Origin: Actinomycetes bacterium
Lineage (GTDB): Bacteria > Actinomycetota > Acidimicrobiia > Acidimicrobiales > Ilumatobacteraceae
DNA length: 64,000 nt
Assembly (NCBI GenBank): GCA_021414085.1
Contig: JAIOPC010000011.1
Coordinates: 62,001 to 126,000 of the forward strand
Reading direction: 5' to 3'
Shown here: one piece after another, positions 3,001 through 19,809 of the stretch
How positions within the stretch are numbered: position 1 is the stretch's first letter
Layout of the letters: the number at the start of each line of letters is the position of its first letter
Position numbers and translations under genes: made by a program
Notes under the pieces: model-generated
Databases searched by the model: none
Seen by the model: only the letters and a program-made list of their open reading frames with translations
What the model was told of the DNA's origin: nothing

Positions 3001-6000
3001 TGGCGAACCCGACTCGCAATCTCACCATCACCGAGGACCCGTTGCCAGCGGGCTGGATCCTCACCGCGATTGCTTGCACCGACGGAGTGGGCGCTCCGGT
3101 TGGAACCCCCGACCTGCCGACGCGGTCCGTGGCGTTCACGGCGGCGCCGGGCCAGGACGTCTCGTGTCGCTTCACCAACGAGAAGCTTCCGGTGGTGACC
3201 GCAATTCGCAAGGTGTCGATCGGTGGCACCGGCACGTTCAACTTCGCTGGCGGCACTAACGGCCTGCCAGCAAACCTGGCGCTGGATACGGGTGCTGCTA
3301 ACCCAGCATCGTCCGGGCCGTACACGCTCACCGCGTTCAACACGCCCACGAGCATCACTGAAACCATCCCGACCAACTACACGTTGACCTCAGCGGTGTG
3401 CGTCGACGGCAGCAGTTCGCCGGTCGCGACCACACTCGTCGGCGGCGTCCTCACGATCGACCCGTCGGAAGTCGTCGGCGGTGTTGAGTTCACTTGCACG
3501 TTCACCAACACGCGCAAGAGCGCGCAGGTCAGCGTGGTCAAGCGCTGGATCAACGGCGAGGTCGGCAACCAGGTAACGATCAGCTCAACGGGCGGCACCA
3601 ACAACCCTGGCCTCGTCTCAGTTGCTGATACGACCAACGAGTCGGACCTCGGTACTCCGGTCACGGTGTACGCGGGCGAGACGCTGACGTTGTCGGAGAC
3701 GTTTAACACCGGCAGCCCGGCCAATTACTCGTCCGTCCTTACGTGTGTGAACGCCAGCGACGTAACGCCGACCAACGGCCTGTCGATAGCCGCCGCCGAC
3801 GACGGTGCCAACATCGTCTGCACCTACACCAACACGGGGCTTGCGGATGTCTACGCGGCCAAGACCGGTGGCGCAGTCGTTGGCCCAGATGCATCTGGCG
3901 CTTATCAGGTGTCGTACTCGGTCGTTGTGGCCAACGGCGGTATCGCCCCAACGACTTATGGCCCATTGGTTGACACGCCAAACTTCGCGCCGAACCTGAC
4001 CATCAGCGGAGCAGTCTGGACGACAAGTGGGCCTGGTGCCCCGGCGGGTGGATCGAGTAGCGGATCAGGTCCGTACACCTTGGCCGCCGCCGCGTCGACG
4101 ATCGGCGCCGGCACCATCCACACATTCAACGTCACGGTTACGTTCAAGTTCGCGACCTACACGCCCGCAGCGGCTTGCGCCGGCCCGGGCACCGGTTTGC
4201 ACAACTCGATCAACCTCGCCTCCGGTGACGCAACGGCAAACGACAACACCGCGTGCGTCCCGCCGCCGGCGCCGCCGGCCCCATCGATCGACATCGTGAA
4301 GTCGGCGCTGCCGTCGTCGGTGACGGCTGCCGGTCAGCTCGTGACCTACTCGTTTGTGGTCACCAACAACGGCAACGTGACGTTGACAAGCGTCGGCGTC
4401 ACCGATCCCTTGGTTGGCTTGTCGGTTGTGTCGTGCCCGGTGTCGACGTTGGCGCCTGCTGCGGCAACGACCTGCACCGCCACTTACACAGTGACGCAGA
4501 GCGACGTTGACGCTGGCTCGATCGCGAACACGGCGACTGCCCACGGCACGCCTCCCGTCGGGGCTCCGGTTACGGACGACGGCTCGGCCACAGTTCCGGC
4601 GACGGCAGATCCGTCGATCACGATCGTGAAGTCGGCGTTGCCGACGACCGTGACTGCAGCCGGTCAGACCGTCAACTATTCGTTCTTGCTGACCAACACC
4701 GGCAACGTGACGTTGCACGCGGTCGGCGTGACTGACCCGTTGCCTGGTTTGTCGGTTGTGTCCTGCCCGGCGACGACCCTCGCGCCGGCTGCGACCACGA
4801 CATGTACGGCTTCGTACACGGTGACGCTTGCCGACATGGATGCCGGCTCGATCGCCAACACCGCGACCGTGAGCGGCACCCCGCCGACTGGCCCCGCAGT
4901 GACCGACAGCGACTCGGCGACGGTGACTGCAACCAACTCTCCGGCAATCAGCGTGGTCAAGTCGGCGTTGCCGACGACGGTGACGGCTGCTGGCCAGACA
5001 GTGAACTATTCGTTCTTGGTGACCAACATCGGCAACGTGACGCTGACCTCTGTCGGCGTGACGGATCCGTTGCCCGGTTTGTCGGTGGTTTCGTGCCCGG
5101 TGTCGACGTTGGCCCCCTCGATCTCAACGACTTGCACGGCTTCGTACACGGTCACTCTCGCCAACATGAACGCCGGATCAATCGTGAACACTGCGACGGC
5201 TTCGGGCATCCCGCCGGGAGGCGCTCCCGATGATGCGGTCACCGATACCGATACGGCGACGGTGACCGCAACGCGGACGCCGTCAATCACCGTCGTGAAG
5301 TCGGCGTTGCCGACGGTCGTGACTGCTGCCGGCCAGACCGTCAACTACTCATTCTTGGTGACCAACACGGGCAACGTCACGCTGACGTCGGTTGCTGTCA
5401 CTGATCCGTTGCCCGGCTTGTCGGTTGTGTCGTGCCCGGTGTCGACGTTGGCGCCGGCTGCGACGACGACCTGCACGGCTTCGTACACAGTGACGCTTGC
5501 TGACATGAACGCGGGCTCGATTGTGAACACGGCGACGACGTCGGGAACGCCGCCGAGTGGCCCTCCGGTTACTGATACGGATACGGCGACAGTGACCGCA
5601 ACTCGGACACCGTCGATCCTGGTCGTGAAGTCGGCGTCGCCGACGACCGTGACGGCTGCTGGGCAGACCGTGAACTATTCGTTCTTGGTGACCAACACGG
5701 GCAACGTGACGTTGACCTCGGTCGGTGTCACCGACCCACTGCCGGGTCTGTCGGTTGTGTCGTGCCCGGTGTCGACGTTGGCGCCAGCTGCGACAACAAC
5801 CTGCACCGCGACCTACACGGTCACGCAGGCGAACGTAAACGCCGGTTCGATTGTGAACACGGCAACTGTGTCGGGCACGCCACCGAGCGGTCCTCCGGTT
5901 ACTGATACGGATACGGCGACGGTGACTGCGACGCGGACTCCGTCGATCCTGGTCGTGAAGTCGGCGTTGCCGACGACCGTATCTGCTGCGGGCCAAACAG

Positions 6001-8720
6001 TGAACTATTCGTTCTTGGTGACGAACACGGGCAACGTGACGTTGACCTCGGTCGGTGTCACTGACCCGCTGCCTGGTCTGTCGGTTGTGTCGTGCCCGGT
6101 GTCGACGTTGGCGCCGGCTGCGACGACGACGTGCACCGCTTCCTACACGACGACGCTTGCTGACATGAACGCCGGTTCGATTGTGAACACGGCGACGACG
6201 AGCGGCACTCCGCCGAGTGGCCCTCCCGTTACTGACACGGATACTGCGACGGTGACTGCAACCCGGACACCGTCGATCACGGTCGTGAAAGCGGCGGCGC
6301 CGACGACGGTGACTGCTGCCGGCCAGACCGTGAACTACTCATTCTTGGTGACGAACACGGGCAACGTCACGTTGACCTCGGTTGGTGTCGCCGACCCGTT
6401 GCCGGGTCTGTCGGTTGTGTCGTGCCCGGTGTCGACCTTGGCGCCAGCTGCGACAACTACTTGCACCGCGACCTACACGGTCACCCAGGCGAACATGAAC
6501 GCCGGTTCGATTGTGAACACGGCGACGACGAGCGGTACTCCGCCGAGTGGCCCTCCCGTTACTGACACGGATACTGCGACGGTGACTGCAACCCGGACAC
6601 CGTCGATCACGGTCGTGAAAGCGGCCTTGCCGACGACGGTGACTGCGGCGGGCCAGACCGTCAACTACTCATTCTTGGTGACCAACACGGGCAACGTCAC
6701 GTTGACCTCGGTTGCTGTCACTGACCCGTTGCCGGGGCTGTCGGTTGTGTCGTGCCCGGTGTCGACGTTGGCACCTGCTGCGACAACGACCTGCACCGCT
6801 ACGTACACGGTCACGCAGGCGAACGTAAACGCGGGTTCGATTGTGAACACGGCAACGGTCGCTGGCACACCGCCAAGTGGCGCGCCGGTTACCGATACCG
6901 ATACCGCGACGGTGACTGCAACGCGGACTCCGTCGATAACGGTGGTGAAGTCGGCGTTGCCGACAACCGTCACCGCCGCCGGCCAGACCGTTAACTATTC
7001 GTTCTTGGTGACCAACACCGGCAACGTCACGTTGACCTCGGTGGTTGTCACTGACCCCTTGCCGGGCCTGTCGGTTGTGTCGTGCCCGGTGTCGACGTTG
7101 GCGCCAGCTGCGACAACGACCTGCACCGCTTCGTACGCGGTCACCCAGGCCGATGTGAACGCGGGCACCATCGTGAACACGGCAACAGTGTCGGGAACGC
7201 CACCGAGTGGACCTCCCGTCACCGACACCGGCTCCACGACGGTGACAGCACCGCGGACTCCGTCGATCACGGTCGCGAAGTCGGCGGCGCCGACAACCGT
7301 CACCGCCGCCGGCCAGACCGTCAACTACTCATTCCTGGTGACCAACACCGGCAACGTCACGCTGACCTCGGTCGATGTCACTGACCCGCTGCCCGGATTG
7401 TCGGTTGTGTCGTGCCCGGTGTCGACCTTGGCGCCTGCTGCCACAACAACCTGCACCGCCTCGTACACAGTCACGCAGGCCGATGTGAACGCTGGCACGA
7501 TTCTGAACACGGCGACTGCCACAGGCACGCCGCCGAGCGGTCCTGCAGTTACTGATACGGACACGGCGACGGTGACTGCAACGCAGACTCCGTCGATCAC
7601 GGTGCTCAAGTCGGCGTTGCCGACAACGGTCACCGCTGCCGGTCAAGTCGTCACCTACTCGTTCTTGGTCACGAACACCGGCAACGTCACCCTGACCTCG
7701 GTTGCCGTCGTCGATCCGCTTCCCGGATTGTCGGTTGTGTCGTGCCCGGTGTCGACCTTGGCGCCAGCTGCCACTACAACCTGCACGGCGACCTACACGG
7801 TCACGCAAGCTGATGTGAATGCTGGCTCGATCGTGAACACGGCAACGGTGTCGGGTGATCCGCCGAGCGGACCTCCTGTCACTAACACCGGTTCCACCAC
7901 GGTCACCGCGCCTTCGAGCCCGGGCATCACAGTCGTGAAGAGCACCACCGAACCGCCGTACACGGCTGTTGGTCAGGTTCTCGACTTCACATTGACCGCG
8001 ACGAACACAGGCAACGTGACGCTGACGAACGTGACGATCACTGACGCAATGGCGGTGATCGGATCGTGCACACCTGCCGCGCCGGCCACGCTGCTTCCAG
8101 GTCAGACGCTCGTTTGTGCGGCAGCCCATGCGGTGACGCAGGCCGATCTCGATCACGGATCGTTCGACAACGTTGGTGCGGTCAGTGGTGTAACGCCGCA
8201 GGCCGCGACAGTCACCGACGACAGCAACGTGGTGACAATTCCTGCAACCAAGTCGCCTGCGGTCACGCTCTCGAAGGCGACCACGTCGACCAGCTTCAAC
8301 GCGGTTGGTCAACAGGTTCCCTACACGATTACGGCGCTGAACTCGGGCAACGTCACATTGACCAACGTGGTCATCACCGACCCGAACGCGGCTATCGGGA
8401 CTTGCACGCCTGCAGCACCCGCCACGCTGGCTCCCGGGCAGTCGATGAGTTGCGCCGCAGTTCATACAGTGACGCAGGCGGACCTGACTGCGCTCTCCAT
8501 CACTAACACCGCTCACGTTGCGGCTGATGCCGGAGTGCTCGACGTATCAGGATCTTCCAATGTCGTGCTCGTGCCAGGAACACCGACCATTCCGCGAACC
8601 GGCGGTGATATCGCCGGGTCGCTTAAGCTGGTCGGCATGTTCCTTGTTTCAGGCCTGCTGCTGCTGGTCGCATCGAAGCGTCGTCGTCAGTGCTACCTAG
8701 TGTTGCCTCCGCTGCGATGA
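1..8720 (+). CDS. Giant DUF11-repeat surface protein, 5'-truncated by window edge
   Basis: The frame is open from base 3, so the gene starts upstream of the window; the GTG near 210 is not its start. About 2,900 residues are visible. A glycine-rich stretch covers about the first 280 residues. Two DUF11-type domains follow (about 900-1830), then six prealbumin-like domains that mostly open with (I/V)TxxK-type strands and end in CTFTNT-like motifs (1840-3840), one more DUF11-like domain (3840-4270), eleven near-identical 110-residue DUF11 units (4281-7919) and two diverged units. The C-terminus has IPRTGG, a hydrophobic segment and a KRRRQ tail, which looks like a sortase sorting signal with I replacing L. 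Such proteins are usually wall-anchored stalks or adhesins; ligand and role are unknown. No sortase gene lies in the window. The stop overlaps the ATG of the next gene. Confidence 0.9.
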   Translation, partial: ASGVVEADPAANAANVSQSTTGALAGGSVPDGTCRAHITATGGGGASGGLAAANGGRGGAAATIDATVAVLPGQAYSGSVAGGGQTNSTGGVGGGGTGGTIVNLHRGAGGGGRSVVAIGGLTQVVAGGGGGGGAAHNAGTPLPGNGGAAGTAVGAGTAGVGATGTNGVDNPAGNVVGAGQGGQAAAGGAGGTNSAAGTFEDGQAGGGTATGVGGNGGPDANYDSAGGGGAGYTGGGGGASTVGDTVTGAGGGGGSSWVAATSPVAAANVPTGIAGVNTAQTAQSANGANGSVTIDWIPCQYDLVMTKTVSPTTINAGDRATWTVSITNNGPDAMTRGDTISLADTLPTGPNAATPGPSFNVTSISTSGGSNANLLSGAVTCTGLSVGSSMPASTVCTRPYAPAVGTPGTPPAASGTRGLNVGETLTIVYQQVISNTAPCATITNTATSTDRPTLTGTTDVVGVPTLNTVSTPLVINCYDLAVAKTVSPTPFVQLGGTITWTITVTNNGPGSMNGPIATVANPLVVTDVFPSTNLSAATLTGSTGPAGACTLVVSTVTCATGLPASGQQVLTFTQTVSGSAVDSAVVANTATVSDPKTGDSNDSSSASTIVHHPRITLNKTIVSRVNPADQFTVRVVNGVTTVGTATTAGAGLTASTGVVLAAGGTYTLSEVMAAGSASTIGQYTNFISCTNSNATSTTVLPSGAGTSFTVSPTGLDNITCTFTNTPRPALITVSNTTIGGVGPFNYGLTNLSSPSTSITTTVAGTPTNSPQFTATAVNSAVSIAETVPSGWAFTSVSCTDANSAVTGNVGTFGTLVGSTVTIPAANVKAGSNITCAFVNTKQARLTITKTGVGGGGAFDYTTTGGLSPSTFTLNPAPPVSDSRVFTSVAPGTYTVTEAALAGFHLADITCSNLPGSAPGTTNTTTIGSGLLSVTLVPGADYQCTYTNIANANVAIIKSTVGGDETFTFTTTGTGIGPDPTPSITTAGGTGSAAFDVAFDVANPTRNLTITEDPLPAGWILTAIACTDGVGAPVGTPDLPTRSVAFTAAPGQDVSCRFTNEKLPVVTAIRKVSIGGTGTFNFAGGTNGLPANLALDTGAANPASSGPYTLTAFNTPTSITETIPTNYTLTSAVCVDGSSSPVATTLVGGVLTIDPSEVVGGVEFTCTFTNTRKSAQVSVVKRWINGEVGNQVTISSTGGTNNPGLVSVADTTNESDLGTPVTVYAGETLTLSETFNTGSPANYSSVLTCVNASDVTPTNGLSIAAADDGANIVCTYTNTGLADVYAAKTGGAVVGPDASGAYQVSYSVVVANGGIAPTTYGPLVDTPNFAPNLTISGAVWTTSGPGAPAGGSSSGSGPYTLAAAASTIGAGTIHTFNVTVTFKFATYTPAAACAGPGTGLHNSINLASGDATANDNTACVPPPAPPAPSIDIVKSALPSSVTAAGQLVTYSFVVTNNGNVTLTSVGVTDPLVGLSVVSCPVSTLAPAAATTCTATYTVTQSDVDAGSIANTATAHGTPPVGAPVTDDGSATVPATADPSITIVKSALPTTVTAAGQTVNYSFLLTNTGNVTLHAVGVTDPLPGLSVVSCPATTLAPAATTTCTASYTVTLADMDAGSIANTATVSGTPPTGPAVTDSDSATVTATNSPAISVVKSALPTTVTAAGQTVNYSFLVTNIGNVTLTSVGVTDPLPGLSVVSCPVSTLAPSISTTCTASYTVTLANMNAGSIVNTATASGIPPGGAPDDAVTDTDTATVTATRTPSITVVKSALPTVVTAAGQTVNYSFLVTNTGNVTLTSVAVTDPLPGLSVVSCPVSTLAPAATTTCTASYTVTLADMNAGSIVNTATTSGTPPSGPPVTDTDTATVTATRTPSILVVKSASPTTVTAAGQTVNYSFLVTNTGNVTLTSVGVTDPLPGLSVVSCPVSTLAPAATTTCTATYTVTQANVNAGSIVNTATVSGTPPSGPPVTDTDTATVTATRTPSILVVKSALPTTVSAAGQTVNYSFLVTNTGNVTLTSVGVTDPLPGLSVVSCPVSTLAPAATTTCTASYTTTLADMNAGSIVNTATTSGTPPSGPPVTDTDTATVTATRTPSITVVKAAAPTTVTAAGQTVNYSFLVTNTGNVTLTSVGVADPLPGLSVVSCPVSTLAPAATTTCTATYTVTQANMNAGSIVNTATTSGTPPSGPPVTDTDTATVTATRTPSITVVKAALPTTVTAAGQTVNYSFLVTNTGNVTLTSVAVTDPLPGLSVVSCPVSTLAPAATTTCTATYTVTQANVNAGSIVNTATVAGTPPSGAPVTDTDTATVTATRTPSITVVKSALPTTVTAAGQTVNYSFLVTNTGNVTLTSVVVTDPLPGLSVVSCPVSTLAPAATTTCTASYAVTQADVNAGTIVNTATVSGTPPSGPPVTDTGSTTVTAPRTPSITVAKSAAPTTVTAAGQTVNYSFLVTNTGNVTLTSVDVTDPLPGLSVVSCPVSTLAPAATTTCTASYTVTQADVNAGTILNTATATGTPPSGPAVTDTDTATVTATQTPSITVLKSALPTTVTAAGQVVTYSFLVTNTGNVTLTSVAVVDPLPGLSVVSCPVSTLAPAATTTCTATYTVTQADVNAGSIVNTATVSGDPPSGPPVTNTGSTTVTAPSSPGITVVKSTTEPPYTAVGQVLDFTLTATNTGNVTLTNVTITDAMAVIGSCTPAAPATLLPGQTLVCAAAHAVTQADLDHGSFDNVGAVSGVTPQAATVTDDSNVVTIPATKSPAVTLSKATTSTSFNAVGQQVPYTITALNSGNVTLTNVVITDPNAAIGTCTPAAPATLAPGQSMSCAAVHTVTQADLTALSITNTAHVAADAGVLDVSGSSNVVLVPGTPTIPRTGGDIAGSLKLVGMFLVSGLLLLVASKRRRQCYLVLPPLR
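4281..7919 (+). repeat. Eleven tandem 330-bp DUF11-coding repeats
   Basis: Unit starts lie at 4281, 4611, 4941, 5280, 5610, 5940, 6270, 6600, 6930, 7260 and 7590. Every unit is 330 bp except the third, which is 339 bp because of a short in-frame insertion near 5215. Long blocks such as the one coding LSVVSCPVSTLAP are nearly identical in DNA, which suggests recent unequal exchange or gene conversion. Two further units (from 7920 and about 8256) are clearly diverged. The array is coding and in frame throughout. Confidence 0.95.
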
Positions 8721-9211
8721 AGTACGCACGTCGTGCGTGTTTCTTCGCGGTTGGGGCGCTGGCACTCGCTGCTTGTTCGGACGAGTCGTCGAACAAGGGC
8801 GAGCCGCAGAGCACTGACGTGGTGGTGACGACCGTCGCGGTGGCCGCCACCGATCCGACGGTCGTCGATGAGTCGACCACTACCACGGTCGCCGATGTCA
8901 CCGATGTCGTGCACAATCCTGCAACCGGCGAGTTTGTCGGGGCAGTGGAAGACGTGACCGCGCAGACGTGCGACAAGGAAGCGGACGGGTGGCGCGTCAC
9001 CGGAACGGCAACGAACCCGACTGGCGACGCCGTCGACTATCGCATCTACGTGAGCTTGTTGGACGGCGCTTCGGCTACCCGTGCACTCGTCGAGACCGAG
9101 GTGTTGGCCGTCGCGGCGAGCGCAGCCGGAACCTTCGATGTGCTGATCCCAATTCCCGATGACGACCTGCGCTGCGTGCTGCGCGTCGAGCGTCGCGCCC
9201 CCGGCACCTGA
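8717..9211 (+). CDS. Small secreted lipoprotein
   Basis: The protein has 164 residues. A signal peptide with arginines at positions 5-6, a hydrophobic core and the lipobox LAAC predict lipidation of Cys20. A Ser/Thr/Asp-rich linker (to about residue 70) leads to a compact C-terminal domain containing the phrase VTGTATNPTGDAVDYRIYV, reminiscent of FxLYD-type beta-sandwich domains. The chosen ATG overlaps the stop of the giant surface protein gene (ATGA); an upstream start near 8690 would add nine residues before the signal peptide and is less likely. Co-expression with the surface protein is likely. Function is unknown. Confidence 0.75.
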   Translation: MKYARRACFFAVGALALAACSDESSNKGEPQSTDVVVTTVAVAATDPTVVDESTTTTVADVTDVVHNPATGEFVGAVEDVTAQTCDKEADGWRVTGTATNPTGDAVDYRIYVSLLDGASATRALVETEVLAVAASAAGTFDVLIPIPDDDLRCVLRVERRAPGT

Positions 9212-9213
9212 AC

Positions 9214-9258
9214 CGTTTGTACGCTGCCGCGCGCTATGCGTGCATCAGCGTTCAAACG
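9214..9258. terminator. 45-bp palindromic element between convergent genes
   Basis: An imperfect inverted repeat, CGTTTGTAC-N27-GTTCAAACG, with a further inner GCTG/CAGC pair. It starts 2 bp after the stop of the lipoprotein gene and ends 6 bp before the stop of the oppositely oriented oxidoreductase gene. It probably acts as a bidirectional terminator. Its ends, length and centre (GCGCTATGCG) match the element at 15247-15291. Confidence 0.65.
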
Positions 9259-9264
9259 CAGCTC

Positions 9265-11130
9265 TCACAGGGTGAGGGCGACGCGGCGGGCTTCCAGTAT
9301 CGCTTCGTGAATCGTGCGCGGGGCGACGCAATCCCCGGCCTGCGCGACGGCACCCTTGATCGGGTCGGTCGGTAGGCGGAACCCGCAGTCCACCAGCGCC
9401 GAGCAGGCGATGGTGCGGCCCTCGCCGCTGAAGCGATCCTGCACCTCGATCTCGCCAGGGCGTGCTGCGCGCAGGACGCTGCGCCGCTCGATGCGCACGC
9501 CGAGTTGTGCGAGTCGCACGTTGGCGGGCGCCAGGTCGCCGCTGCGAGACAATTCGTTTCCCGCTATCTGATCTTGGGTGATGAGGATCGCGCGTGCGCC
9601 GAGTTGTTCGGCGAGCGCGATCGCGATCGGTCCGCCTACTGGGTCGAACAACGCAATCGACCCCTCCGGAAGCTGCGCTCCGCGGTGAACGTCCATCACG
9701 TCGAACACGATTGCGCCGTCGGCGATCTCGTAGACAGCGGCGCCCGGTTTGCTGCCCGTGCACTGCACGACTACCTCGTCCGCACGCGGACTGGCGTACT
9801 CCGTGTGCAGTTGCACCTCAACGCCGGCATCGTCGATCTCGCTGCGCAGCCACTCCACGAGCGCGGCACCTGGGCCAGCGAGTGCGGCAATTCCTCCGAC
9901 GTGATCGGCGCGATCAATGATGCGTACGCGGTGACCGCGTGCGGAAGCCACGCGCGCGGCCTCCATTCCTGCGATGCCGGCGCCGATCACCAGCACGTCG
10001 CGCGTTTGTGTCGCGGCGGCATACCAATCTGGGTCTTCGGTCTCGCGCCCGCTGCTCGGCTCGCCCACGCACGTCACTATCGGGCTGCGCGCGTCGCGCA
10101 CCTGACATGTCTGGTTGCACCGAATGCACGGCCGAACTCGCGATCCGTCGCGCACCTTGCGCACGAGGTCGGGGTCGGCGATCTGAGCGCGTGTCATCTC
10201 GACGCCATCGCAGACGCCTTCGTTGATGGCCCATTCGGCCTGTTGGTGGTCGACAACTGAACCTTGCAAGAAAACCGGCGTGGTGGCGGCCGACTCCTTC
10301 ACCCGGCGACAGAGGTCGATGTTGTAACCAGCAGGCACGTGGAAATCGGCGCGGGTCTTTTCGGCGGAGTAGATGCTGCCGCGCGTGACAACGAGGTAGT
10401 CGACCATCGGGGCTAACTGATGCGCGATGTCGGCTGCGATATCCGGTGTGATGCCCGCCCACGGCGCAAGCTCGTCGCAGGAGAGGCGCAGCCCCAGCAC
10501 GCGATCACCGACGCTGTTGCGCGCGGCGGTCAACACTTCGCGTGCGAACTGCATGCGGTCCTGGCCCCATTCGTCGCCGCGCTGGTTGGTCAGGCCGCTG
10601 AGGAACTGACGCACCAAGCTGTGCTGCCCGGCGTTGATCTCGACGCCGTCGCACCCGGCACCGATCGCCATCGCTGCCGCGCTCCCGAAACCGGCAATGA
10701 CCGCGGTGATGTCGTCGGCTTCCATCGACTTGGGCACCTCGCGGGTGTTCACCTCTGGAACGCGCGAAGGTGCCCACAGTTCTCGCTGGTTGTAGGCGCT
10801 GCTGCCCTGGCCACCGGCGTGATCGAGCGATGCGATGACGCCTGTGCCGTGCGGACGGCACGCCGCGACAATTGCGGCCCATCCGTCTGCACAGCGATCG
10901 GCCAGCGGTGCTCGCTCGTAGGGCCAATCGCTGTCGTGAACGCTGGCACCTTCCACAACAATGGCGCCGCACCCGCCGCGCGCGCGTCGCGCGTAATACG
11001 CAGTGTGGCGCGCCGTTAGTCGCCGGTCGAGGTCGCCGAGGTTGGTGACGTGCGGACCGAACATCACTCGATTGCCGAGAACAAGCGTCGAGTGGGGTGC
11101 GCCCAGCGAGAGTGACTGCAGCAGGTGCAT
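9265..11130 (-). CDS. Mycofactocin-associated FadH/OYE-family flavin oxidoreductase
   Basis: The protein has 621 residues. An N-terminal old-yellow-enzyme TIM barrel (residues about 1-330) would bind FMN. A 4Fe-4S motif CX2CX3CX11C follows (C335, C338, C342, C354), then an FAD/NAD(P) Rossmann segment VIGAGIAG near 381. This is the architecture of 2,4-dienoyl-CoA reductase (FadH) and trimethylamine dehydrogenase. Position at the end of an mftABC operon points to the FadH/OYE oxidoreductases known to co-occur with mycofactocin, which may use or regenerate the cofactor; the substrate is unknown. It lies 35 bp after the PlsY-like gene and is probably in the same transcript. It reads towards the palindrome at 9214-9258. 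Confidence 0.8.
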   Translation of the reverse strand: MHLLQSLSLGAPHSTLVLGNRVMFGPHVTNLGDLDRRLTARHTAYYARRARGGCGAIVVEGASVHDSDWPYERAPLADRCADGWAAIVAACRPHGTGVIASLDHAGGQGSSAYNQRELWAPSRVPEVNTREVPKSMEADDITAVIAGFGSAAAMAIGAGCDGVEINAGQHSLVRQFLSGLTNQRGDEWGQDRMQFAREVLTAARNSVGDRVLGLRLSCDELAPWAGITPDIAADIAHQLAPMVDYLVVTRGSIYSAEKTRADFHVPAGYNIDLCRRVKESAATTPVFLQGSVVDHQQAEWAINEGVCDGVEMTRAQIADPDLVRKVRDGSRVRPCIRCNQTCQVRDARSPIVTCVGEPSSGRETEDPDWYAAATQTRDVLVIGAGIAGMEAARVASARGHRVRIIDRADHVGGIAALAGPGAALVEWLRSEIDDAGVEVQLHTEYASPRADEVVVQCTGSKPGAAVYEIADGAIVFDVMDVHRGAQLPEGSIALFDPVGGPIAIALAEQLGARAILITQDQIAGNELSRSGDLAPANVRLAQLGVRIERRSVLRAARPGEIEVQDRFSGEGRTIACSALVDCGFRLPTDPIKGAVAQAGDCVAPRTIHEAILEARRVALTL

Positions 11131-11165
11131 TGCGGTTGAAGCTACTAGTCGACGCTACGCGTCGC

Positions 11166-11747
11166 TCAGGCCGTACGCGAAGCGGACAGCTCGCGACCCG
11201 CAAGCAGTCGTTTGATGTTGTCGACGTGGCGAACCAACACCAAAGCGTTGCAAGCAACGAGCGTGGCGATTTCCCATCCGGGAGCGCCCTTCACGGCCAC
11301 TGCTACCGGTAGCCCGATCATGATGGCCAGGGATGCAATCGAAGCTTTGCCCGACAACTTGCGCACGATCACCCACAACATGAGCATCGCCAGCGACAGG
11401 ATCGGTTGCAGCACCATGGCGCCGCCCCCCATCGTTGCGACACCCTTGCCGCCCTTGAACCGGCGGGTGATGGGAAACATATGGCCGAGCACCGCGGCTG
11501 CCAGCATGCCGTAGGCGGCCGCGCGATTGTCCAAGAGCACGCCCGCGGCCGCAGGTATCGCCCCCTTCAGTCCATCAAGGATGAAGACCACGACGCCCCA
11601 CTTGGTGCCCATCATGCGCGCGACGTTGGAAGCGCCTGGGTTGCCGGAGCCAACTTGCTGGATGTCGATGCCGCGGCTGCGCGCCACGATCGCGGCGTTT
11701 GGGAACGTGCCGACCAGATAGGCGGGCACCAGCAACAGCCAGATCAC
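11166..11747 (-). CDS. plsY: PlsY-like glycerol-3-phosphate acyltransferase
   Basis: A 193-residue polytopic membrane protein with the PlsY signatures GSGNPGASNVARMMG (about residues 33-47) and GHMFPITRRFKGGKGVA (about 87-103). PlsY moves an acyl group from acyl phosphate to glycerol-3-phosphate, the first step of phospholipid synthesis. Its ATG is 6 bp after the mftC stop, so it is translated within the mycofactocin operon. Whether it is the housekeeping enzyme placed here or a specialised paralogue cannot be told from this window. The family call is firm; the role in this locus is open. Confidence 0.85.
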   Translation of the reverse strand: MIWLLLVPAYLVGTFPNAAIVARSRGIDIQQVGSGNPGASNVARMMGTKWGVVVFILDGLKGAIPAAAGVLLDNRAAAYGMLAAAVLGHMFPITRRFKGGKGVATMGGGAMVLQPILSLAMLMLWVIVRKLSGKASIASLAIMIGLPVAVAVKGAPGWEIATLVACNALVLVRHVDNIKRLLAGRELSASRTA

Positions 11748-11753
11748 AGCGGG

Positions 11754-12896
11754 TTACTGTACGCGGCTCGTGGGCTTGCTGTGATCTGCAGCGGGTCGTG
11801 GCTTCAAGGCAATCGCCACTGGGGTCGTGCCACTATCAACGCCGTTGCCGATCACGCACTCGGGATCAGGGCCGTCGAGGGGCACGCCGGTGAAGAACTT
11901 CGCGGCCATGCAACCGCCCTGGCATGCATCGAAGGCACCGCAGCTCGCGCACGCGCCAGCCGATTGCGGTTCGCGCAACGACGTGAACAGGTCGCTCTCG
12001 CGCCAAATGCGGCTGAACCCGCCGCTGTCGCGCAGGTTGCCCGCGCGAAAGTCGCCGTGGATCACGAAGGGACAGGCGTAGACATCGCCGACCGGATCGA
12101 TCAGGCACACCACGCGACCGGCGCCGCACATGTTCAGGCCGGGCAACGCATCGCCGAGAGCATTGAGGTGAAAGAACGAGTCGCCGGTCAGCACGTTTTC
12201 TCCGTGCAACATCAACCAGTCGTAGATCTCGCGTTGCTGAGCCTGCGTCGGGTGCAAATCGTCCCACGTGTCGACGCCGCGACCGCTTGGGCGCAGGCGC
12301 GTCAGCCGCAGCTGCGCGCCGTAACTGTCGGCGAGAGCCTTGAACTGATCGAGCTGCGACACGTTGTGGCGAGTGGCGACGACGCTGATCTTGAATGGCC
12401 CGAAGTTCGCCGCCGACAGATTGTCCATCGCGCGGCGCGCCATCGCGTAGCTGCCGTTGCCGCGCACGGCGTCGTTGGTTGCAGCATCGACGCCATCGAT
12501 GCTGATCTGTATGTCGAGGTAATCCATTGCCGCCAGACGGCGTGCATTCGCTTCATCGATGAAGGCGCCGTTGGTGGAGAACTTGACGCCGATGCCGTCG
12601 GCCCCATCGCGCGGCGTTACGGCGTACTCGATCAGCTCGAAGAAATCGCGACGAACCATTGGTTCGCCACCGCCGATGTTGATGTAGAAGACCTGCATCC
12701 TGCGCAGTTCGTCCAGCACATGCTTGGCCTCGGCGGTGTTGAGTTCGCGCTCATCGCGCTGACCCGACGACGACAGGCAGTGCACGCACTGCAGATTGCA
12801 CGCGTAGGTGAGTTCCCAGGTCAGGCAGATCGGGGCATCGAGGCCCGACTTCAGTCGGGTTGTCAGTGATGGCTGCGCAAGGGCACTAGCGCTCAC
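11754..12896 (-). CDS. mftC: Mycofactocin radical SAM maturase MftC
   Basis: The protein has 380 residues. A radical-SAM CX3CX2C motif (C33, C37, C40, in TYACNLQCVHC) binds the 4Fe-4S cluster that cleaves S-adenosylmethionine. A cysteine-rich SPASM region near the C-terminus (CGAGRVVC, YACPF, CASCGAFDACQGGCMA) would hold auxiliary clusters. MftC decarboxylates and then crosslinks the C-terminal Val-Tyr of MftA. The GTG start at 12896 is preceded by GGAGG six bases upstream and overlaps the mftB stop; an upstream start at 12962 would overlap mftB far more and lacks such a site. It lies directly downstream of mftA and mftB, which settles the assignment. Confidence 0.95.
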   Translation of the reverse strand: MSASALAQPSLTTRLKSGLDAPICLTWELTYACNLQCVHCLSSSGQRDERELNTAEAKHVLDELRRMQVFYINIGGGEPMVRRDFFELIEYAVTPRDGADGIGVKFSTNGAFIDEANARRLAAMDYLDIQISIDGVDAATNDAVRGNGSYAMARRAMDNLSAANFGPFKISVVATRHNVSQLDQFKALADSYGAQLRLTRLRPSGRGVDTWDDLHPTQAQQREIYDWLMLHGENVLTGDSFFHLNALGDALPGLNMCGAGRVVCLIDPVGDVYACPFVIHGDFRAGNLRDSGGFSRIWRESDLFTSLREPQSAGACASCGAFDACQGGCMAAKFFTGVPLDGPDPECVIGNGVDSGTTPVAIALKPRPAADHSKPTSRVQ

Positions 12897-13191
12897 GAAC
12901 GACCTCCGATGCGCGCAGTGATTCGAACGCGACGGCGAACGATTGCCAGCGACTCGTATCAATCCCGGCGGCGGCGAGCGCCGCTTCCAACGACGGGTGC
13001 TCGGCGAGGCTGCGCGCGACCGTGACCATGTCGATGTGTTTCAGAAACACCAACCGGCGAGTGCCGTAGTGATAGGCGAGCGCTCCGAAGGGCTCGGGGC
13101 GCAACGCAACCTGCGGATGCAACTCCAGCGCCACAGCCAACAATGGGTGGGTGGCGCGGACGGTCAGTTCAGTAGACACCGCACATGCCAT
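12886..13191 (-). CDS. mftB: Mycofactocin precursor-binding chaperone MftB
   Basis: A PqqD-like RiPP recognition protein of 101 residues that binds the MftA leader and presents it to MftC. The core contains HPQVALRPEPFGALAYHY and RRLVFLK strands followed by helices, as in the family. The ATG at 13191 has GAGGAA ten bases upstream and lies inside mftA, so the genes overlap by about 23 bp; a GTG at 13179 is the alternative. The stop overlaps the mftC start. These overlaps suggest coupled translation. Confidence 0.9.
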   Translation of the reverse strand: MACAVSTELTVRATHPLLAVALELHPQVALRPEPFGALAYHYGTRRLVFLKHIDMVTVARSLAEHPSLEAALAAAGIDTSRWQSFAVAFESLRASEVVRER

Positions 13192-13276
13192 CGATGGAGA
13201 TTTCCTCAACCAACAACTCCTCGAGAAGCTCGCTGGCCGGCTCGTCAATCACCACTTCATCGACTGGGTTCTCCAT
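13169..13276 (-). CDS. mftA: Mycofactocin precursor peptide MftA
   Basis: A 35-residue peptide with a Glu/Asp/Leu-rich leader and the diagnostic C-terminus IDGMCGVY. The final Val-Tyr pair is the part converted by MftC into the redox-active pyrrolidinone core of mycofactocin. It begins the minus-strand mft operon, and the ATG is 7 nt after a TAGGGT hexamer, suggesting a leaderless mRNA. The terminal motif and the order with mftB and mftC make the call nearly certain. Confidence 0.96.
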   Translation of the reverse strand: MENPVDEVVIDEPASELLEELLVEEISIDGMCGVY

Positions 13277-13327
13277 GTGTAGAACCCTAGCGGGGGAGGA
13301 CGGCGGGCTAGATAGCGTGGCACGCCC
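13277..13327. promoter_or_regulatory. Divergent promoter region mftA / helD-like
   Basis: Only 51 bp separate the two start codons. On the minus strand TAGGGT (13284-13289) lies 7 nt before the mftA ATG. On the plus strand TAGCGT (13313-13318) lies 9 nt before the GTG of the HelD-like gene. Neither start has a convincing Shine-Dalgarno site, so both mRNAs are probably leaderless. No -35 element or operator is obvious. Confidence 0.45.
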
Positions 13328-15253
13328 GTGAACGCCGACTCTTTTCCTGAATTGGCTGCTGAACAGACCCAACTCGGGTTCGCGCGCGCCTGCCGAGATC
13401 GGATGATCGAGAGGTTCTCGCAGCTCGATCCCGATGCGTCCGCCGATGAGATCACCAAGGAGTACATCGAGGTCACCGTCGCCGAGGCACTGGAGGACTT
13501 GAATACCCCGGGCGCTGGTGACTTCTTTGGGCGTATCGAGGAGGCTCGTGGCGATCAAGCGCAGGCGCGGTGGTACATCGGCCGTCGTCATATCGAGAAC
13601 GATCAGCACGATCCGGTGGTGATCGATTGGCGAGCCCCTATCGCGGCGCCGTTCTATCGCGCAACGCACGCCGACCCATTCGGGCTCTCGCATCGCCGTC
13701 GCTTCACGATGGCCGATGGCGAGTTGACGGCTTACCTCGACGAACAACTCGACGACCCCGATCACGAGTCGGCGGGAAGTGGTATCCCCGATCCAGTGCT
13801 CGCCGAGATCGGCGCGGCGCGCACTGGCGCGATGCGCGAGATCGTGGCCACCATTCAGGCCGAGCAGGACGTGGTCATTCGTGCACCGCTCGATCAGTGC
13901 CTGGTCGTGCAGGGCGGTCCGGGCACGGGCAAGACGGCAGTCGGTCTGCACCGCGCGGCCTACCTGCTGTTCGAGCATCGTCGCCGACTGGTGCGCGATG
14001 GCGTATTGGTCGTGGGGCCGAACAGGGTGTTTCTCGATTACATCGGCAACGTGCTGCCATCGCTCGGTGAACGCAGTGTGCAGCAACGAACCGCGCTGGA
14101 ACTATGCGTGCCGAAGGTGGAGATCACCGCGGAGGACGACCGCGAGACCCGCGCTTGGAAGGGTGCGCCGGAGATGCTCGAACAGCTCGAGCAGGCAGCG
14201 ACGGCGCACATCGCGATTCCTGTCGACGATGTGCGCGTTCCGTTTGGCGCGCGCACGATCACGATCACGAGCGACGAGCTGGGTGCGTGGATCACGCAGG
14301 CGCTGAACGCCAACGCGCCGGTCAACAAACGGCGCGACTCGATGAAGGGCATCGTTCAGCGCGACATGCTGCGCCGCTTCGATCGCGACGATGTGTGGGA
14401 GAAGGCGCCGGCGTTGCGGGCGGCGATCACCAAGGCGTGGCCCACCCAACTGCCGATCAAGCTGGTCGACAAGTTGCTGCCTGGCCCGAGCGGTAAGAAG
14501 CGACAGTGGACGGTTGCCGATCAGTTCTTGGTGGACGAAGCGAACTCGCTGCTCAACGGCACACCATTCACCTACGGACACGTAGTGGTCGACGAGGCGC
14601 AAGATCACAGCGCCGTAGCGTTGCGCTGCATCGGTCGCCGCAGTCCCAGCAGTTCACTCACGATTCTCGGCGACCTCGCACAATCGACCACTCCCGCCGG
14701 CCAGCGCGATTGGGATGAAGCGCTCGGTCACCTCCGCGTTTCGGCCAGCGAGATCGCGCACCTCACCATCGGCTATCGCGTGCCCGCGCCAATCCTCGAC
14801 GTTGCCAATCGCCTGTTGCCGCACACGCAAGTCGCGACGGCAGCGAGTCGGAGCGTGCGCGCCGAAGGAGAAGCGCCATCTGTGCGGTCGGTCGGCGCAT
14901 CGGAGCTGGCCGACGCCGTCGCCGATGAAGTCCGTCTTGTGCGTCACCGGCATCGCAACACGGGAGTCGTGGCGCCCATCGCACTACATGCCGCGCTCGC
15001 GGAAGCGTTGGCCCGTGTTGGCTTCACTGCCTGCGATCGCGTCCACGACCTTGCGGCCAACGACGTGCCGGTCTTCCACGCCGAAGCGGTCAAGGGCCTC
15101 GAGTTCGACGGCGTGATTGTCGTCAACCCGCACCAAATCTTCGACGGCTCGGCCCTCGGCGCCCGCCTGCTGTACGTGGCGATGACCCGCGCCGTGCAAG
15201 TGCTGCACATCGTCACCGACGCCCCGCTACCCGCCGCCATCAACAGCGTTTGA
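13328..15253 (+). CDS. HelD/HelR-like RNA polymerase-associated UvrD-family ATPase
   Basis: A superfamily-1 helicase-like protein of 641 residues. Walker A GGPGTGKT is near residue 196, Walker B VVVDEAQDHS near 419, a GYRVP motif near 480 and a C-terminal block KGLEFDGVIVVNP typical of UvrD/HelD proteins. HelD proteins remove stalled RNA polymerase from DNA and in actinomycetes (HelR) help tolerate rifamycins. The N-terminal region with FFGRIEE and WYIGRRHI resembles the HelD N-terminal arm. The GTG start is preceded by a -10-like TAGCGT. The stop codon lies inside the palindrome at 15247-15291. Confidence 0.85.
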   Translation: MNADSFPELAAEQTQLGFARACRDRMIERFSQLDPDASADEITKEYIEVTVAEALEDLNTPGAGDFFGRIEEARGDQAQARWYIGRRHIENDQHDPVVIDWRAPIAAPFYRATHADPFGLSHRRRFTMADGELTAYLDEQLDDPDHESAGSGIPDPVLAEIGAARTGAMREIVATIQAEQDVVIRAPLDQCLVVQGGPGTGKTAVGLHRAAYLLFEHRRRLVRDGVLVVGPNRVFLDYIGNVLPSLGERSVQQRTALELCVPKVEITAEDDRETRAWKGAPEMLEQLEQAATAHIAIPVDDVRVPFGARTITITSDELGAWITQALNANAPVNKRRDSMKGIVQRDMLRRFDRDDVWEKAPALRAAITKAWPTQLPIKLVDKLLPGPSGKKRQWTVADQFLVDEANSLLNGTPFTYGHVVVDEAQDHSAVALRCIGRRSPSSSLTILGDLAQSTTPAGQRDWDEALGHLRVSASEIAHLTIGYRVPAPILDVANRLLPHTQVATAASRSVRAEGEAPSVRSVGASELADAVADEVRLVRHRHRNTGVVAPIALHAALAEALARVGFTACDRVHDLAANDVPVFHAEAVKGLEFDGVIVVNPHQIFDGSALGARLLYVAMTRAVQVLHIVTDAPLPAAINSV

Positions 15254-15291
15254 ACACTTTCGGGCGCTATACGCCCGAAAGTGTACAAACG
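15247..15291. terminator. 45-bp palindrome, second copy; likely terminator
   Basis: CGTTTGAAC-N27-GTACAAACG. The inner 13-bp arms (15254-15266 and 15272-15284) pair perfectly around the loop CTATA, and the outer arms extend 8 bp after a single A/A mismatch, giving about 21 pairs. The TGA of the HelD-like gene lies in the left arm. There is no T-run. End sequence, length and centre match the element at 9214-9258. Confidence 0.75.
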
Positions 15292-15356: not shown

Positions 15357-16484
15357 ATGCAGACCAAAGCAGCAATCCTGTGGGAACGGCACGCACCGTG
15401 GAGCGTCGAGACGATCGAACTCGACCCGCCCAAGCTCAATGAGGTGTTAGTGAAGATCGTCGCCAGTGGCATGTGCCGTAGCGACGAGCACTTGGTGACC
15501 GGCGACATGGCGGGCGTATCTCCCGAGCCGCCTTTGATCGGTGGCCACGAGGGTGCCGGTGTTGTGCTTGAGGTCGGCCCAGGGGTGTCGAGCCTGCAAG
15601 TCGGCGACCATGTCGTGTTCGGTTTCTTGCCCGCATGCGGTCGTTGCCCCAGTTGCGCGTCGGGCCACAGCAACGTTTGTGACATGGGTGCCGTTACGGC
15701 AACCGGTATGCAACTTGGCGACGGAACCTCCCGCCACCACGCACAGGGCAAAGACCTCGCGCTGGGCATTGGTGCACTTGGCACGTTCGCCCATCACACC
15801 GTTGTCAACGAAATGAGCTGTATCAAGATCGACAAAGAGTTGCCGCTCGAGAAGGCCTGCCTGCTGGGTTGCGGCGTCGTCACCGGTTGGGGTGCGGCAG
15901 TGTACGCGGCACAAGTCGAACCCGGCGACACCGTCGCGGTTGTCGGCGCTGGCGGTATCGGCTCGAACGCAATTCAGGGTGCGCGGCTTGCCGGTGCGCG
16001 CGTGATTGCCGCGATCGACCCGATCGAGTTCAAGCGCGAGAAGGCGATGGAGTTCGGTGCGACGGTTACTCATGCGTCGATCGATGAAGCAATCGCCGCA
16101 ATGCCCGAGACCACCTGGAACCGTGGTTTCGACAAGGTGATCATGACCTGCAGTGTCGGCAGTGGCGACGTGCTGGGGCAAGCGTTCTGGCTCGGTGGCA
16201 AGCGCAGCAAGATCGTTGTCGTCAACATCCACCCGACTTCGGAGGGCACCATCGCCATTCCAGCCGCGTTCCTGACGTTCTTCGAGAAGCAAATCATTGG
16301 TTCGCTGTTTGGCTCGGGCAACCAGCGTCGCGACATTCCGAAGCTGCTCGAGCTCTACACGCAGGGCCAAATCGATCTCGACGGCCTCGTCACCAAGACC
16401 TACACCCTCGACGAGATCAACCAGGGATACGCCGACATGGATGCCGGAAAGAACATCCGTGGCGTGATGGTGTACGAGCACTGA
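15357..16484 (+). CDS. NDMA-dependent, mycofactocin-linked alcohol dehydrogenase
   Basis: A zinc-dependent medium-chain dehydrogenase of 375 residues. Catalytic-zinc ligands fit C40 and H64-E65 (GHEGAG); structural-zinc cysteines are C94, C97, C100 and C108. A Rossmann motif GAGGIGSNA lies near residue 199. The sequence resembles the Rxyl_3153-type family whose NAD(H) stays bound and must be reoxidised by mycofactocin in vivo or by N,N-dimethyl-4-nitrosoaniline in assays. The mftABC operon 2 kb away supports this. The substrate is some alcohol; which one cannot be read from sequence. The ATG at 15357 is 7 nt after TAACGT, a leaderless arrangement. Confidence 0.88.
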   Translation: MQTKAAILWERHAPWSVETIELDPPKLNEVLVKIVASGMCRSDEHLVTGDMAGVSPEPPLIGGHEGAGVVLEVGPGVSSLQVGDHVVFGFLPACGRCPSCASGHSNVCDMGAVTATGMQLGDGTSRHHAQGKDLALGIGALGTFAHHTVVNEMSCIKIDKELPLEKACLLGCGVVTGWGAAVYAAQVEPGDTVAVVGAGGIGSNAIQGARLAGARVIAAIDPIEFKREKAMEFGATVTHASIDEAIAAMPETTWNRGFDKVIMTCSVGSGDVLGQAFWLGGKRSKIVVVNIHPTSEGTIAIPAAFLTFFEKQIIGSLFGSGNQRRDIPKLLELYTQGQIDLDGLVTKTYTLDEINQGYADMDAGKNIRGVMVYEH

Positions 16485-18344: not shown

Positions 18345-18377
18345 CTGAAACGTCAGCACTGAAACGTCAGCACTGAA
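18345..18377. repeat. 14-bp tandem duplication at LCP gene 3' end
   Basis: CTGAAACGTCAGCA occurs twice in direct succession (18345-18358, 18359-18372), followed by a partial third copy. On the minus strand it duplicates the last codons (Gln-Cys-stop) of the LCP gene that ends at 18367. It looks like a slippage duplication and also fills the gap between the convergent VWA and LCP genes. Confidence 0.85.
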
Positions 18378-19809
18378 TCGTTTCGTCGGGCACGATGTCG
18401 CCCAGCACGTTCTCTTCCGGCTCCGCGGCCACAGTGGTGGTTGTTGTCGTGCTGGTGGTCGTGGTCGGCCTGGTGGTGGTGGTTGGCGCGACCGTCGTGG
18501 TGGTACCGGTTCCCGTGCCACCAGTAGTACCGCTTGTCGGCGTCGTGGCGACGGTCGTCGTGGGCTTGAGGGTGGTCGTCGTTGTCGATGTGGTCGACGT
18601 CGTCGTCGTTTCGAACACTTGGACGGGTGCGCCAGCCAGCGGTGCGACGCCCTGGAAGATGGCCAGGATCGCCTTCATGTTCTTGCCCTTCAGAGCTGGC
18701 TTTTGCACAGCGCTGTCGCCCACCCGCAGCGATGTGGATTCGACCTGATAAGTGCGGATGTCGGCAGGGTCGATGTCGCGCATCACGCCCGCGAAGCTGA
18801 GCACTTCATCGAGCGACAGCAAACCCGAATCGCGCACGATGTCTTCCTGCAGCGTCTCGATCAACGCCCGAGCAACTGTTGGGTTGTACAGGCCCTTCTC
18901 GAGCGCTGCTTGCAGCATTCGACGGAGAAAGTCCTGCTGGCGCGAAATGCGGCCGAAGTCGGCGGCGCGATCCTCGTGCTTGTCGCCGTCCTCATCGACC
19001 CACTTGAGGTGACGCGATCGCACGTATGCCAACGCTTCGTCGCCACTGAACGTGTGGCAACCAGCCCCGATGTAGAGACTGACGTTTGCATCGAGAATCG
19101 GGGTCTTGAATGGAACGGAGACACCGCCGACGGCATCGACAATCTTCTTGAACGCACAGAAGTCGATCTGCAGATAGTGATCGACGGTGATGCCGAAGGT
19201 GTCGAACAGCGTCTGCGCGAGCAGCGTGTAGTCGTTCTGGACAAATGCGCTGTTGATGCGCTTGTTACTGCCACCAACCTTCACCCACAGATCGCGCGGA
19301 AACGACAGCACGGCGGCCTGGTTGGTCGAAGGGTCGACGCGCATGACCATGATCGAATCGCTGCGACTGCCGATTGAGTCGCGGGCGGGATCGGCGGCGC
19401 TGGCCCATGGAGAGTCGGGGTCGACGCAGGGATTGCTATCGGACCCGGCGATCAGAAAGTTGACGGCATTCGGGTCGGCAGGCGGAAAGTCCTCCACAAC
19501 TGGGACGGTGTCGCCAGGGAGAGTGCTGCTGCTGCCAACGATCGTGGTCAGCGGCAATGCGCCCGTCGTCACGATCTCTACTTGCTCAACGGCTTGCGTG
19601 TTGTCGAGCTCGTGTTTGCCGTACAGCAGTGCGCCGGCGCCACCGAGGCAGGCGATGACAACGACGATGTTGACCGCCATGACGAGCTTCTGGGCGATGG
19701 TGTGGCGCGGCCGGAACGGCGCGCGTTCTGCGGGCTGCTCTGGCTCGGCCGACTCTGACATAGCAGGCTCTGGCTCCGACTGGTCTGGCGCGGGCTGCTC
19801 GTCGTCCAT
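18367..19809 (-). CDS. LytR-CpsA-Psr (LCP) family protein 2
   Basis: The protein has 480 residues. A cytoplasmic N-terminus (about 50 residues) is followed by one transmembrane helix, then an extracellular LCP domain with SDSIMVMRVDP, SFPRDLWVKV and ALAYVRSRHL blocks, including the arginines that bind polyprenyl pyrophosphate. A long Thr/Ser-rich linker of about 75 residues leads to the tail GDIVPDETIQC, ending in cysteine. LCP enzymes attach glycopolymers such as arabinogalactan or teichoic acids to peptidoglycan. The ATG at 19809 shares a base with the stop of the upstream paralogue (TGATG), so the two are an operon and surely arose by duplication. Confidence 0.92.
   Translation of the reverse strand: MDDEQPAPDQSEPEPAMSESAEPEQPAERAPFRPRHTIAQKLVMAVNIVVVIACLGGAGALLYGKHELDNTQAVEQVEIVTTGALPLTTIVGSSSTLPGDTVPVVEDFPPADPNAVNFLIAGSDSNPCVDPDSPWASAADPARDSIGSRSDSIMVMRVDPSTNQAAVLSFPRDLWVKVGGSNKRINSAFVQNDYTLLAQTLFDTFGITVDHYLQIDFCAFKKIVDAVGGVSVPFKTPILDANVSLYIGAGCHTFSGDEALAYVRSRHLKWVDEDGDKHEDRAADFGRISRQQDFLRRMLQAALEKGLYNPTVARALIETLQEDIVRDSGLLSLDEVLSFAGVMRDIDPADIRTYQVESTSLRVGDSAVQKPALKGKNMKAILAIFQGVAPLAGAPVQVFETTTTSTTSTTTTTLKPTTTVATTPTSGTTGGTGTGTTTTVAPTTTTRPTTTTSTTTTTTVAAEPEENVLGDIVPDETIQC

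Follow-up and report, generated by a model that had tools for sequence, protein, structure and literature searches.

Two 45-bp palindromes, at positions 9214–9258 and 15247–15291, lie at gene 3' ends within a 64,000-nucleotide stretch of an Ilumatobacteraceae draft genome (contig JAIOPC010000011.1, forward-strand positions 62,001 to 126,000; hereafter the window), and the question that they raise is what such elements are and what could bring them to these places. We consider it probable, at roughly 0.7, that they are copies of a non-autonomous dispersed element resembling the repetitive extragenic palindromes (REPs), and that the cognate enzyme, encoded elsewhere, joins an AbiEi-type helix-turn-helix to a PDDEXK-like nuclease domain. 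The palindromes form a family of fixed length and biased towards gene 3' ends, with species-specific versions and with gain and loss of sites between relatives; they constantly flank one nuclease-like gene, with which they are co-distributed in the genus, and most of the homologues analysed show the same pairing of gene and repeat, as do genes from a second class of Actinomycetota.

A palindrome family of fixed length behind genes

The two elements and the genes that adjoin them in the window are as follows.

9214..9258, unstranded: palindrome copy 1, 45 bp, CGTTTGTAC...GTTCAAACG, 16 of 20 arm pairs, between convergent stops 2 nucleotides (nt) and 6 nt away
15247..15291, unstranded: palindrome copy 2, 45 bp, CGTTTGAAC...GTACAAACG, 19 of 20 arm pairs, contains the TGA that ends the gene upstream
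8717..9211, plus strand: gene without a Pfam match, its 3' end next to copy 1
9265..11130, minus strand: flavin (FMN/FAD) oxidoreductase gene (Oxidored_FMN), convergent, abuts copy 1
13328..15253, plus strand: UvrD-like helicase gene, stop TGA 15251–15253 inside copy 2
15357..16484, plus strand: gene for a zinc alcohol dehydrogenase, following copy 2

Both elements have exactly the coordinates and the length that an initial annotation, made from the letters alone, had assigned to them, and its reading of their surroundings was correct: copy 1 lies between TGA 9209–9211 on the plus strand and the minus-strand gene end at 9265, where it takes up 45 of the 53 bp that separate the convergent stops, and copy 2 contains a stop codon. 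The annotation needs correcting in that neither palindrome is fully paired, position 7/39 being mismatched in both copies (T-T and A-A). The pattern CGTTTGWAC-N20..34-GTWCAAACG has two matches in the window and none in 100 dinucleotide shuffles of it, and the predicted RNA fold energies are –25.7 kcal/mol (z –4.7) for 9214–9258 and –30.3 kcal/mol (z –9.6) for 15247–15291. An Rfam scan of the window gave no match. Just upstream of copy 1, window positions 3–8720 on the plus strand hold a very large gene for a repetitive surface protein with DUF7507, SpaA-like and DUF11 domains.

The genome of the window (G000, a draft of 3.2 Mb in 18 contigs) does hold further copies, as the annotation had led one to expect: the annotation's motif occurs at nine exact places, and a covariance model built on the first nine copies found 19 sites. 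With the ends alone, as CGTTTG-N33-CAAACG, 17 copies were counted in G000 and none with a reversed-pattern control, and the same exact-end pattern gave 20 in G003, 16 in G011, 14 in G009, 13 in G007, 6 in G010, 3 in G014 and 2 in G001, all of the same genus, and none in G002, G004, G005, G006, G008, G012 and G013. In G005, 32 sites were read, mostly with ends of the CGTCTG- or CGTGTG-type, one of them perhaps counted twice at overlapping contig ends; altogether elements were undetected in 6 of the 15 genus genomes. An earlier distribution, obtained with a first covariance model (R1) that placed elements in only 5 of these 15 genomes and gave weak matches in 4 of 46 others, was discarded as incomplete, G003, G009, G010 and G014 having been missed according to orthologous 3' ends and the ends-only pattern. 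Beyond the genus, 206 further genomes of the family were searched with the exact-end pattern: G234 has eight copies, and 35 others have one or two matches, as against 23 with one or two matches to the control pattern, the matches listed not being palindromic by eye.

With a pattern whose spacer could take any of 19 lengths, five genomes gave 68 matches, of which 65 were exactly 45 bp long. Related genomes mostly keep the ends (CGTTTG...CAAACG) and have arm sequences of their own, such as CGTTTGGACACTTCTGCGCGC in G007, CGTTTGTTCGCTGCCGCACG in G011 and CGTCTGAGCACTTYCGCYCG in G005, with one version, CGTTTGAAGGCGTAACCGCAC, common to G003 and G009. The length is thus fixed, and the arms drift between species. 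Over a collection of 84,980 species genomes, from which the window's own genome is perhaps left out, the strict pattern had no match, and a looser pattern tied to the arm sequences of this genus returned 44 stretches, all from the congeners G001, G005, G007 and G011 (Ilumatobacteraceae/Actinomycetota metagenome-assembled genomes).

Positions relative to genes were read from the calls of a simple codon-usage caller for 148 sites, two spurious (non-family) and two duplicate rows having been removed. Copies favour gene 3' ends, convergent gaps above all: 41 sites have convergent genes on their two sides, 73 have codirectional and 16 have divergent ones, with 10 inside called genes and 8 at contig edges, whereas convergent gaps make up 176 of the 3236 intergenic bases of the window. 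Of the 98 distances from a stop codon to the element that the first 90 sites provide, 71 are at most 31 nt, and nine are –7, the value at which the stop is the TGA of the element's own end. The many extragenic copies, the 3'-end bias, the fixed length and the species-specific sequence support the description of a dispersed, structured, REP-like repeat.

Alignment of the 148 sites (145 distinct) shows that conservation, mostly with pairing, covers the inner five positions and the outer nine apart from 4 and 7, that positions 10–15 are variable and pair less well, and that the conserved unit reaches slightly further than the palindrome, as CCG[45]CGG. Recurrent mismatches exist, such as that at position 7 in G005. 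The two arms of an element pair with each other better than arms exchanged between elements of one species do in G000, G003 and G009, about equally well in G007, and more poorly in G005, G010, G011 and G234; with three species better, one equal and four poorer, simple selection for perfect pairing is not shown, and we do not take stem covariation as proof of an RNA function. The CGTTTG/CAAACG ends are paired, and an unpaired GTAG or CGTC tag is absent. Tandem pairs with a period of 61–73 bp are common in G005 and G234. Target site duplication, as for a miniature inverted-repeat transposable element of a DDE insertion sequence, was considered and rejected on a comparison of flanks, which are identical over 4 nt at 1 of 151 sites and over 5 nt at none.

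Comparison of relatives shows that sites are gained and lost. Eight G000 sites have an orthologous gene in G011, and four are occupied in both genomes while four, including that at 9214, are occupied in G000 only ("empty" meaning absent among the 18 sites that model R1 found in G011); conversely, 4 of 15 G011 loci traced into G000 are occupied in both. At the 9214 site the flanking proteins end alike in the two genomes, and the element-free G011 genes overlap by 6 nt at their stops, as against the 53 nt between stops in G000. The counterpart of copy 2, at the orthologous 3' end in G011, does have an element, lying 23 nt further on and with different arms. In the close pair G003/G009 most compared sites are common to both, and 15 orthologous copies show 17 changed stem pairs, 12 one-sided and five compensatory, three of the five in one pair; perfect palindromes occur in both genomes. 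At one site with 95–98% identical flanks, the place taken by the element in G003 is occupied in G009 by an unrelated palindrome-bearing sequence, and another site has a tandem pair in G009 and a single mosaic copy in G003. Behind tandem paralogous genes of G011 (L083:990–1034 and 2653–2697), directly after the stops, stand exact reverse-complement copies, as if flipped. Such exchanged, mosaic and flipped copies, together with site gain and loss, speak for copying, conversion or exchange of the elements. In a further G003/G009 comparison (L272 and L292), homology starts at the element, so that a rearrangement breakpoint coincides with it.

Other palindromes were met in the same genomes. A second family, TTCTGGG...CCCAGAA, often with GATTCGTCCC, lies behind genes in L174, L179, L187, L191, L340 and L433 (G014, G003, G009), and the G003 copy in L179 resembles, by eye, the repeats that flank the G003 paralogue of the partner gene in L433. 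G233 has three more dispersed palindrome families, of 44, 48 and 45 bp (ACGTGGAGGCACGTG.., GACCTTTGGCGTTGGGCTG.. and GCTTTGGTCGTGAGATGTC..; L412, L415, L420, L422, L423, L426, L428, L429). The 45-bp palindromes of the window's family were not seen in the 238 kb read of the congener G013 (L394, L398, L399), where there are strong hairpins unrelated to them, of which some have runs of A and T as ordinary terminators do.

A nuclease-like gene flanked by its own repeats

In six genus genomes the elements bracket one and the same gene, the nearest elements to its left and right starting 950–1000 bp apart, and the gene's stop codon often falls within the copy behind it. The orthologue in the window's genome lies outside the window:

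contig C3 17597–18505 (locus L010/L343): G000 orthologue of the partner gene, flanked by the same palindromes

The product has about 300 residues and an N-terminal AbiEi_4 domain (29.4 bits in the G007 copy and 28.3 in G172, at a cut-off of 25), and PADLOC also reports AbiEi matches for it. Its C-terminal part has a sub-threshold match to the REase MTES_1575 family (PDDEXK, DUF559-like), and E202, D233 and E244, numbered by the first alignment row, are invariant in eight sequences. Searches of PDB, NCBIfam and PHROGs gave no useful match, the best PDB sequence match being unrelated (E 0.15). The gene layout at the orthologue loci, viewed by eye and without an AbiEii profile search, contains no toxin-like partner, and the neighbours in the genus resemble aspS and NUDIX genes.

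A search of 221 family genomes sets clear bounds to the orthologue group, with nine genomes at 245 bits or more and the next match at 103 bits. All nine orthologues, in the six genus genomes and in G234, G233 and G172, are flanked by CGNTTG...CAAACG palindromes; by eye, those of G234 are 45 bp long, with only the start of one downstream before the contig ends, those of G233 are 46 bp, and G172 has 46-bp palindromes, two on each side, in a different gene neighbourhood. Within the genus, all six genomes with the orthologue have elements, and all six without detected elements lack the orthologue (Fisher one-sided p = 84/5005 = 0.017, calculated by hand).

The rule extends to homologues at any distance. 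Seventy loci were taken, 30 picked by the search tool and 40 by hand from the match list, not by their flanks; 68 gave a match and 65 had 200 bp on both sides, and since the loci came from related genomes they are not fully independent. Matching repeats upstream and downstream were found, at a score of at least 16, for 54 of the 65 homologues and 5 of 460 control genes, and at a score of at least 25 for 34 of the 65 and 2 of the 460. A recheck with slightly different gene calls (463 control genes) again gave five positives, one of which is itself a homologue (L456, in stretch L430), so that the true background is about four. With a strict palindrome definition, both sides were positive for 9 of 65 homologues and for 0 of 80 and 0 of 584 controls, and any side for 29 of 65 as against 1 of 80 and 32 of 584. 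The flanking repeats differ from gene to gene. Two homologues have cognate repeats that are dispersed in their own genomes, at 8 places (6 non-overlapping) in 238 kb for the G013 paralogue L443 and at 10 places outside the locus in 317 kb for L456 of G233, compared with 0–1 in the stretches of other genomes. The remaining control positives are the window gene 18367–19815, L392 and L399 of G013 and one gene in L466; among them, the non-homologues at 18367–19815 (minus strand) in the window and at L399:1042–1944 have matching sequences on both sides with scores of 22.5 and 37.5.

The same arrangement was found in Tsukamurella, which belongs to another class of Actinomycetota than the window's genome. 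Among 72,556 plasmid records there is one full-length homologue, a DUF559 protein of Tsukamurella tyrosinosolvens NCTC13231, whose gene lies between inverted copies of a 42-bp palindrome, with further copies on two other records of the same strain, one of them 8 nt from each of two annotated convergent stops and another between divergent genes. Two Sinorhizobium matches to this palindrome were set aside as weak (E 0.6) and looking like chance. Another DUF559 gene, which turned up by chance in this record, has on its two sides a different repeat, of 65 bp, which occurs at 20 places in eight records, all of T. tyrosinosolvens, a count in which a palindrome can enter once per strand; six of its eight best places lack annotation. 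Both Tsukamurella genes of this kind that were met are thus flanked, as against none of the 38 control genes, the other genes of the second gene's stretch. The two proteins score 43.3 and 23.8 bits for DUF559 (cut-off 20.6), and one passes the AbiEi_4 cut-off. Stand-alone DUF559 genes of Bacillota are not repeat-flanked in any of three cases, and phage records contain no homologue.

How the palindromes may spread, and what else they could be

From this association of gene and palindrome we infer binding, cutting and movement. The helix-turn-helix would bind the conserved ends of the palindrome (its outer blocks) and the inner blocks, and the nuclease would cut at or in the palindrome, perhaps in its hairpin or cruciform form. 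Repair from other copies could then spread the element to new 3' ends, and the same repair could homogenise the copies, leaving mosaic halves, a flipped copy or one palindrome exchanged for another. Transcribed as a strong hairpin behind stops, the element may be tolerated, or may be useful as a bidirectional barrier at mRNA 3' ends.

Several observations weigh against this reading. The C-terminal match to MTES_1575 is below the cut-off in every orthologue scanned, and a structure model, in which the order of helices and strands fits the alpha-beta-beta-beta-alpha-beta core of PDDEXK proteins, has a predicted local distance difference test score (pLDDT) of 36, too poor to prove the fold. Eleven of the 65 homologues are without matching flanks, both G000 paralogues (L431, L432) among them. 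For the palindromes beside the orthologue, no dispersed copy was found in 317 kb of G233 or in 99 kb of G172, and the copies of the L456 repeat in G233 are not close to gene ends. Three genus genomes have elements where the orthologue was not found: G001 lacks the gene between the neighbours that it usually has, and three elements were found in that genome by model R1, the G009 contigs end at the orthologue locus, and the G011 genome is 63% complete. Finally, the G000 orthologue carries an in-frame TAG, so that the elements of G000, including those of the window, may be a decaying population.

The explanation that survives best beside a nuclease-moved element is that the palindromes are bidirectional intrinsic terminators common to convergent genes, with the RNA hairpin under selection. 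The hairpins are strong and G+C-rich, the copies prefer 3' ends and convergent gaps, some sit exactly between two stops (copy 1 in the window and the Tsukamurella copy), and five of the 17 changed stem pairs in G003/G009 are compensatory double changes. Terminator function as the primary identity, which the initial annotation had offered beside REP-likeness, is nevertheless unlikely. No T-run follows the hairpin, the numbers of T at positions +1 to +6 being 8, 32, 9, 30, 34 and 26 of 151 sites; the copies are alike in sequence and not in fold only; with only 19 sites in the 3.2 Mb of G000 they are few per genome, and none was detected in six of the 15 genus genomes; arms pair worse than swapped arms in half of the eight species compared; and a single gene family would not be expected to have terminators on both sides.

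AbiEi domains are DNA-binding autoregulators, and the palindromes might accordingly be operators of an autoregulated AbiEi-like regulator with a regulon, the nuclease domain being irrelevant. That the gene is flanked by sites, and that each arm has two conserved blocks, would suit such a role. We regard it as improbable, given that the sites prefer 3' ends and convergent gaps to promoters, that the copy behind the gene often holds its stop codon, that sites turn over between sister species, and that the protein has a second, nuclease-like domain.

A descent from classical REPs, as remnants of a since-lost REP-associated tyrosine transposase (RAYT, of the Y1/HUH type), would account for the architecture and habits of the elements, which are those of REPs as described (PMC3733652, PMC2817692, PMC3116915). 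The transposase that the initial annotation had suggested looking for is absent from all 15 genus genomes, however: the Y1 profile PF01797 was found in none of them and in 7 of 61 genomes searched in all, with a positive control in 5 of 14. Since the unpaired GTAG or CGTC tag is also missing and a different gene is the flanked one, we rejected this explanation, to which we attach very little weight. Least credible of all is that the arms are kept by template-switch correction of quasi-palindromes without any protein, the nuclease-like gene being a passenger that tolerates or prefers palindromes, for this would fit the compensatory changes and the perfect palindromes of G003 and G009 but leaves unexplained the fixed 45-bp length, the recurrent mismatches (position 7, G005), the dispersal, and the 54 of 65 genes that are each flanked by a repeat of their own.

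Relation to known systems and wider meaning

A nuclease-moved palindrome would closely parallel the systems built on REPs. These are described as short extragenic palindromes, mostly behind genes or between convergent genes, in pairs and species-specific (PMC2817692, PMC3733652), usually with more than 100 copies per genome (PMC2817692), and in the REPtron a RAYT (TnpA-REP) gene is flanked by its cognate repeats, with apparent co-evolution of the two (PMC2817692, PMC3733652). Here, too, a dedicated enzyme gene is flanked by cognate, extragenically dispersed repeats, in all of the orthologues and most of the homologues; but the protein is AbiEi-like and PDDEXK-like and not a Y1/HUH transposase, the 45-bp unit has paired ends and no unpaired GTAG tag, and the copies number from 2 to about 32 where present (2–20 by exact ends in eight genus genomes; 32 in G005). 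Because enzyme class, tag and copy number differ, we do not file the system as a member of the REPtrons in spite of the closely parallel logic (PMC2817692, PMC3733652, PMC3116915, PMC8266576).

The present element is like the REPIN in being an inverted-repeat unit whose ends are conserved and whose movement is believed to occur in trans (PMC3116915); it differs in that it is not built of two REPs and has no RAYT. CGTC-tagged REPs, which in the account of PMC3733652 are not associated with transposase genes, share with it a REP-like character without a known dedicated transposase, but their CGTC is an unpaired tag on stems of 8–9 bp (PMC3733652), while the present stem measures about 20 bp and includes the CG ends among its pairs. 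The main text of PMC3733652 does not contain the word Actinobacteria.

On the protein side, the N-terminal AbiEi_4 domain and the PADLOC matches recall AbiEi antitoxins of type IV toxin–antitoxin systems, from which the partner protein differs by its nuclease-like C-terminus, its flanking palindromes and, by eye, the lack of a toxin-like neighbour. The C-terminal domain is like DUF559/MTES_1575 proteins (PDDEXK, Vsr-like), DUF559 being above cut-off in the Tsukamurella pair and MTES_1575 below threshold in the orthologues. The 45-bp element is also shorter than a REPIN. The open-access literature, preprints and subscription papers excluded, yielded no report in which dispersed palindromes are linked with AbiEi, DUF559 or PDDEXK proteins.

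Although REP-like palindromes occur widely, PMC3733652 states that the CGTC type is without an associated transposase gene. The genes studied here have so far been named only "DUF559 domain-containing" or "AbiEi", and in this family they are flanked by palindromes of their own far above controls. A wider proposition, on which we are evenly poised, is that there exists in Actinomycetota a large class of systems, selfish or domesticated and so far undescribed, in which very many palindromes of about 40–65 bp would each be spread by their own AbiEi-PDDEXK nuclease through cutting and repair-copying and not through the single-strand tyrosine chemistry of RAYTs; this would be a second, independently invented partnership of the REP/transposase type, and would answer what moves RAYT-less REP-like repeats in the phylum. 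If the nuclease moves the palindromes, it would represent a new chemistry for dispersing small DNA repeats, many orphan AbiEi/DUF559 genes would gain a proposed function, and the repeats beside each such gene offer a way to find the likely target of its enzyme.

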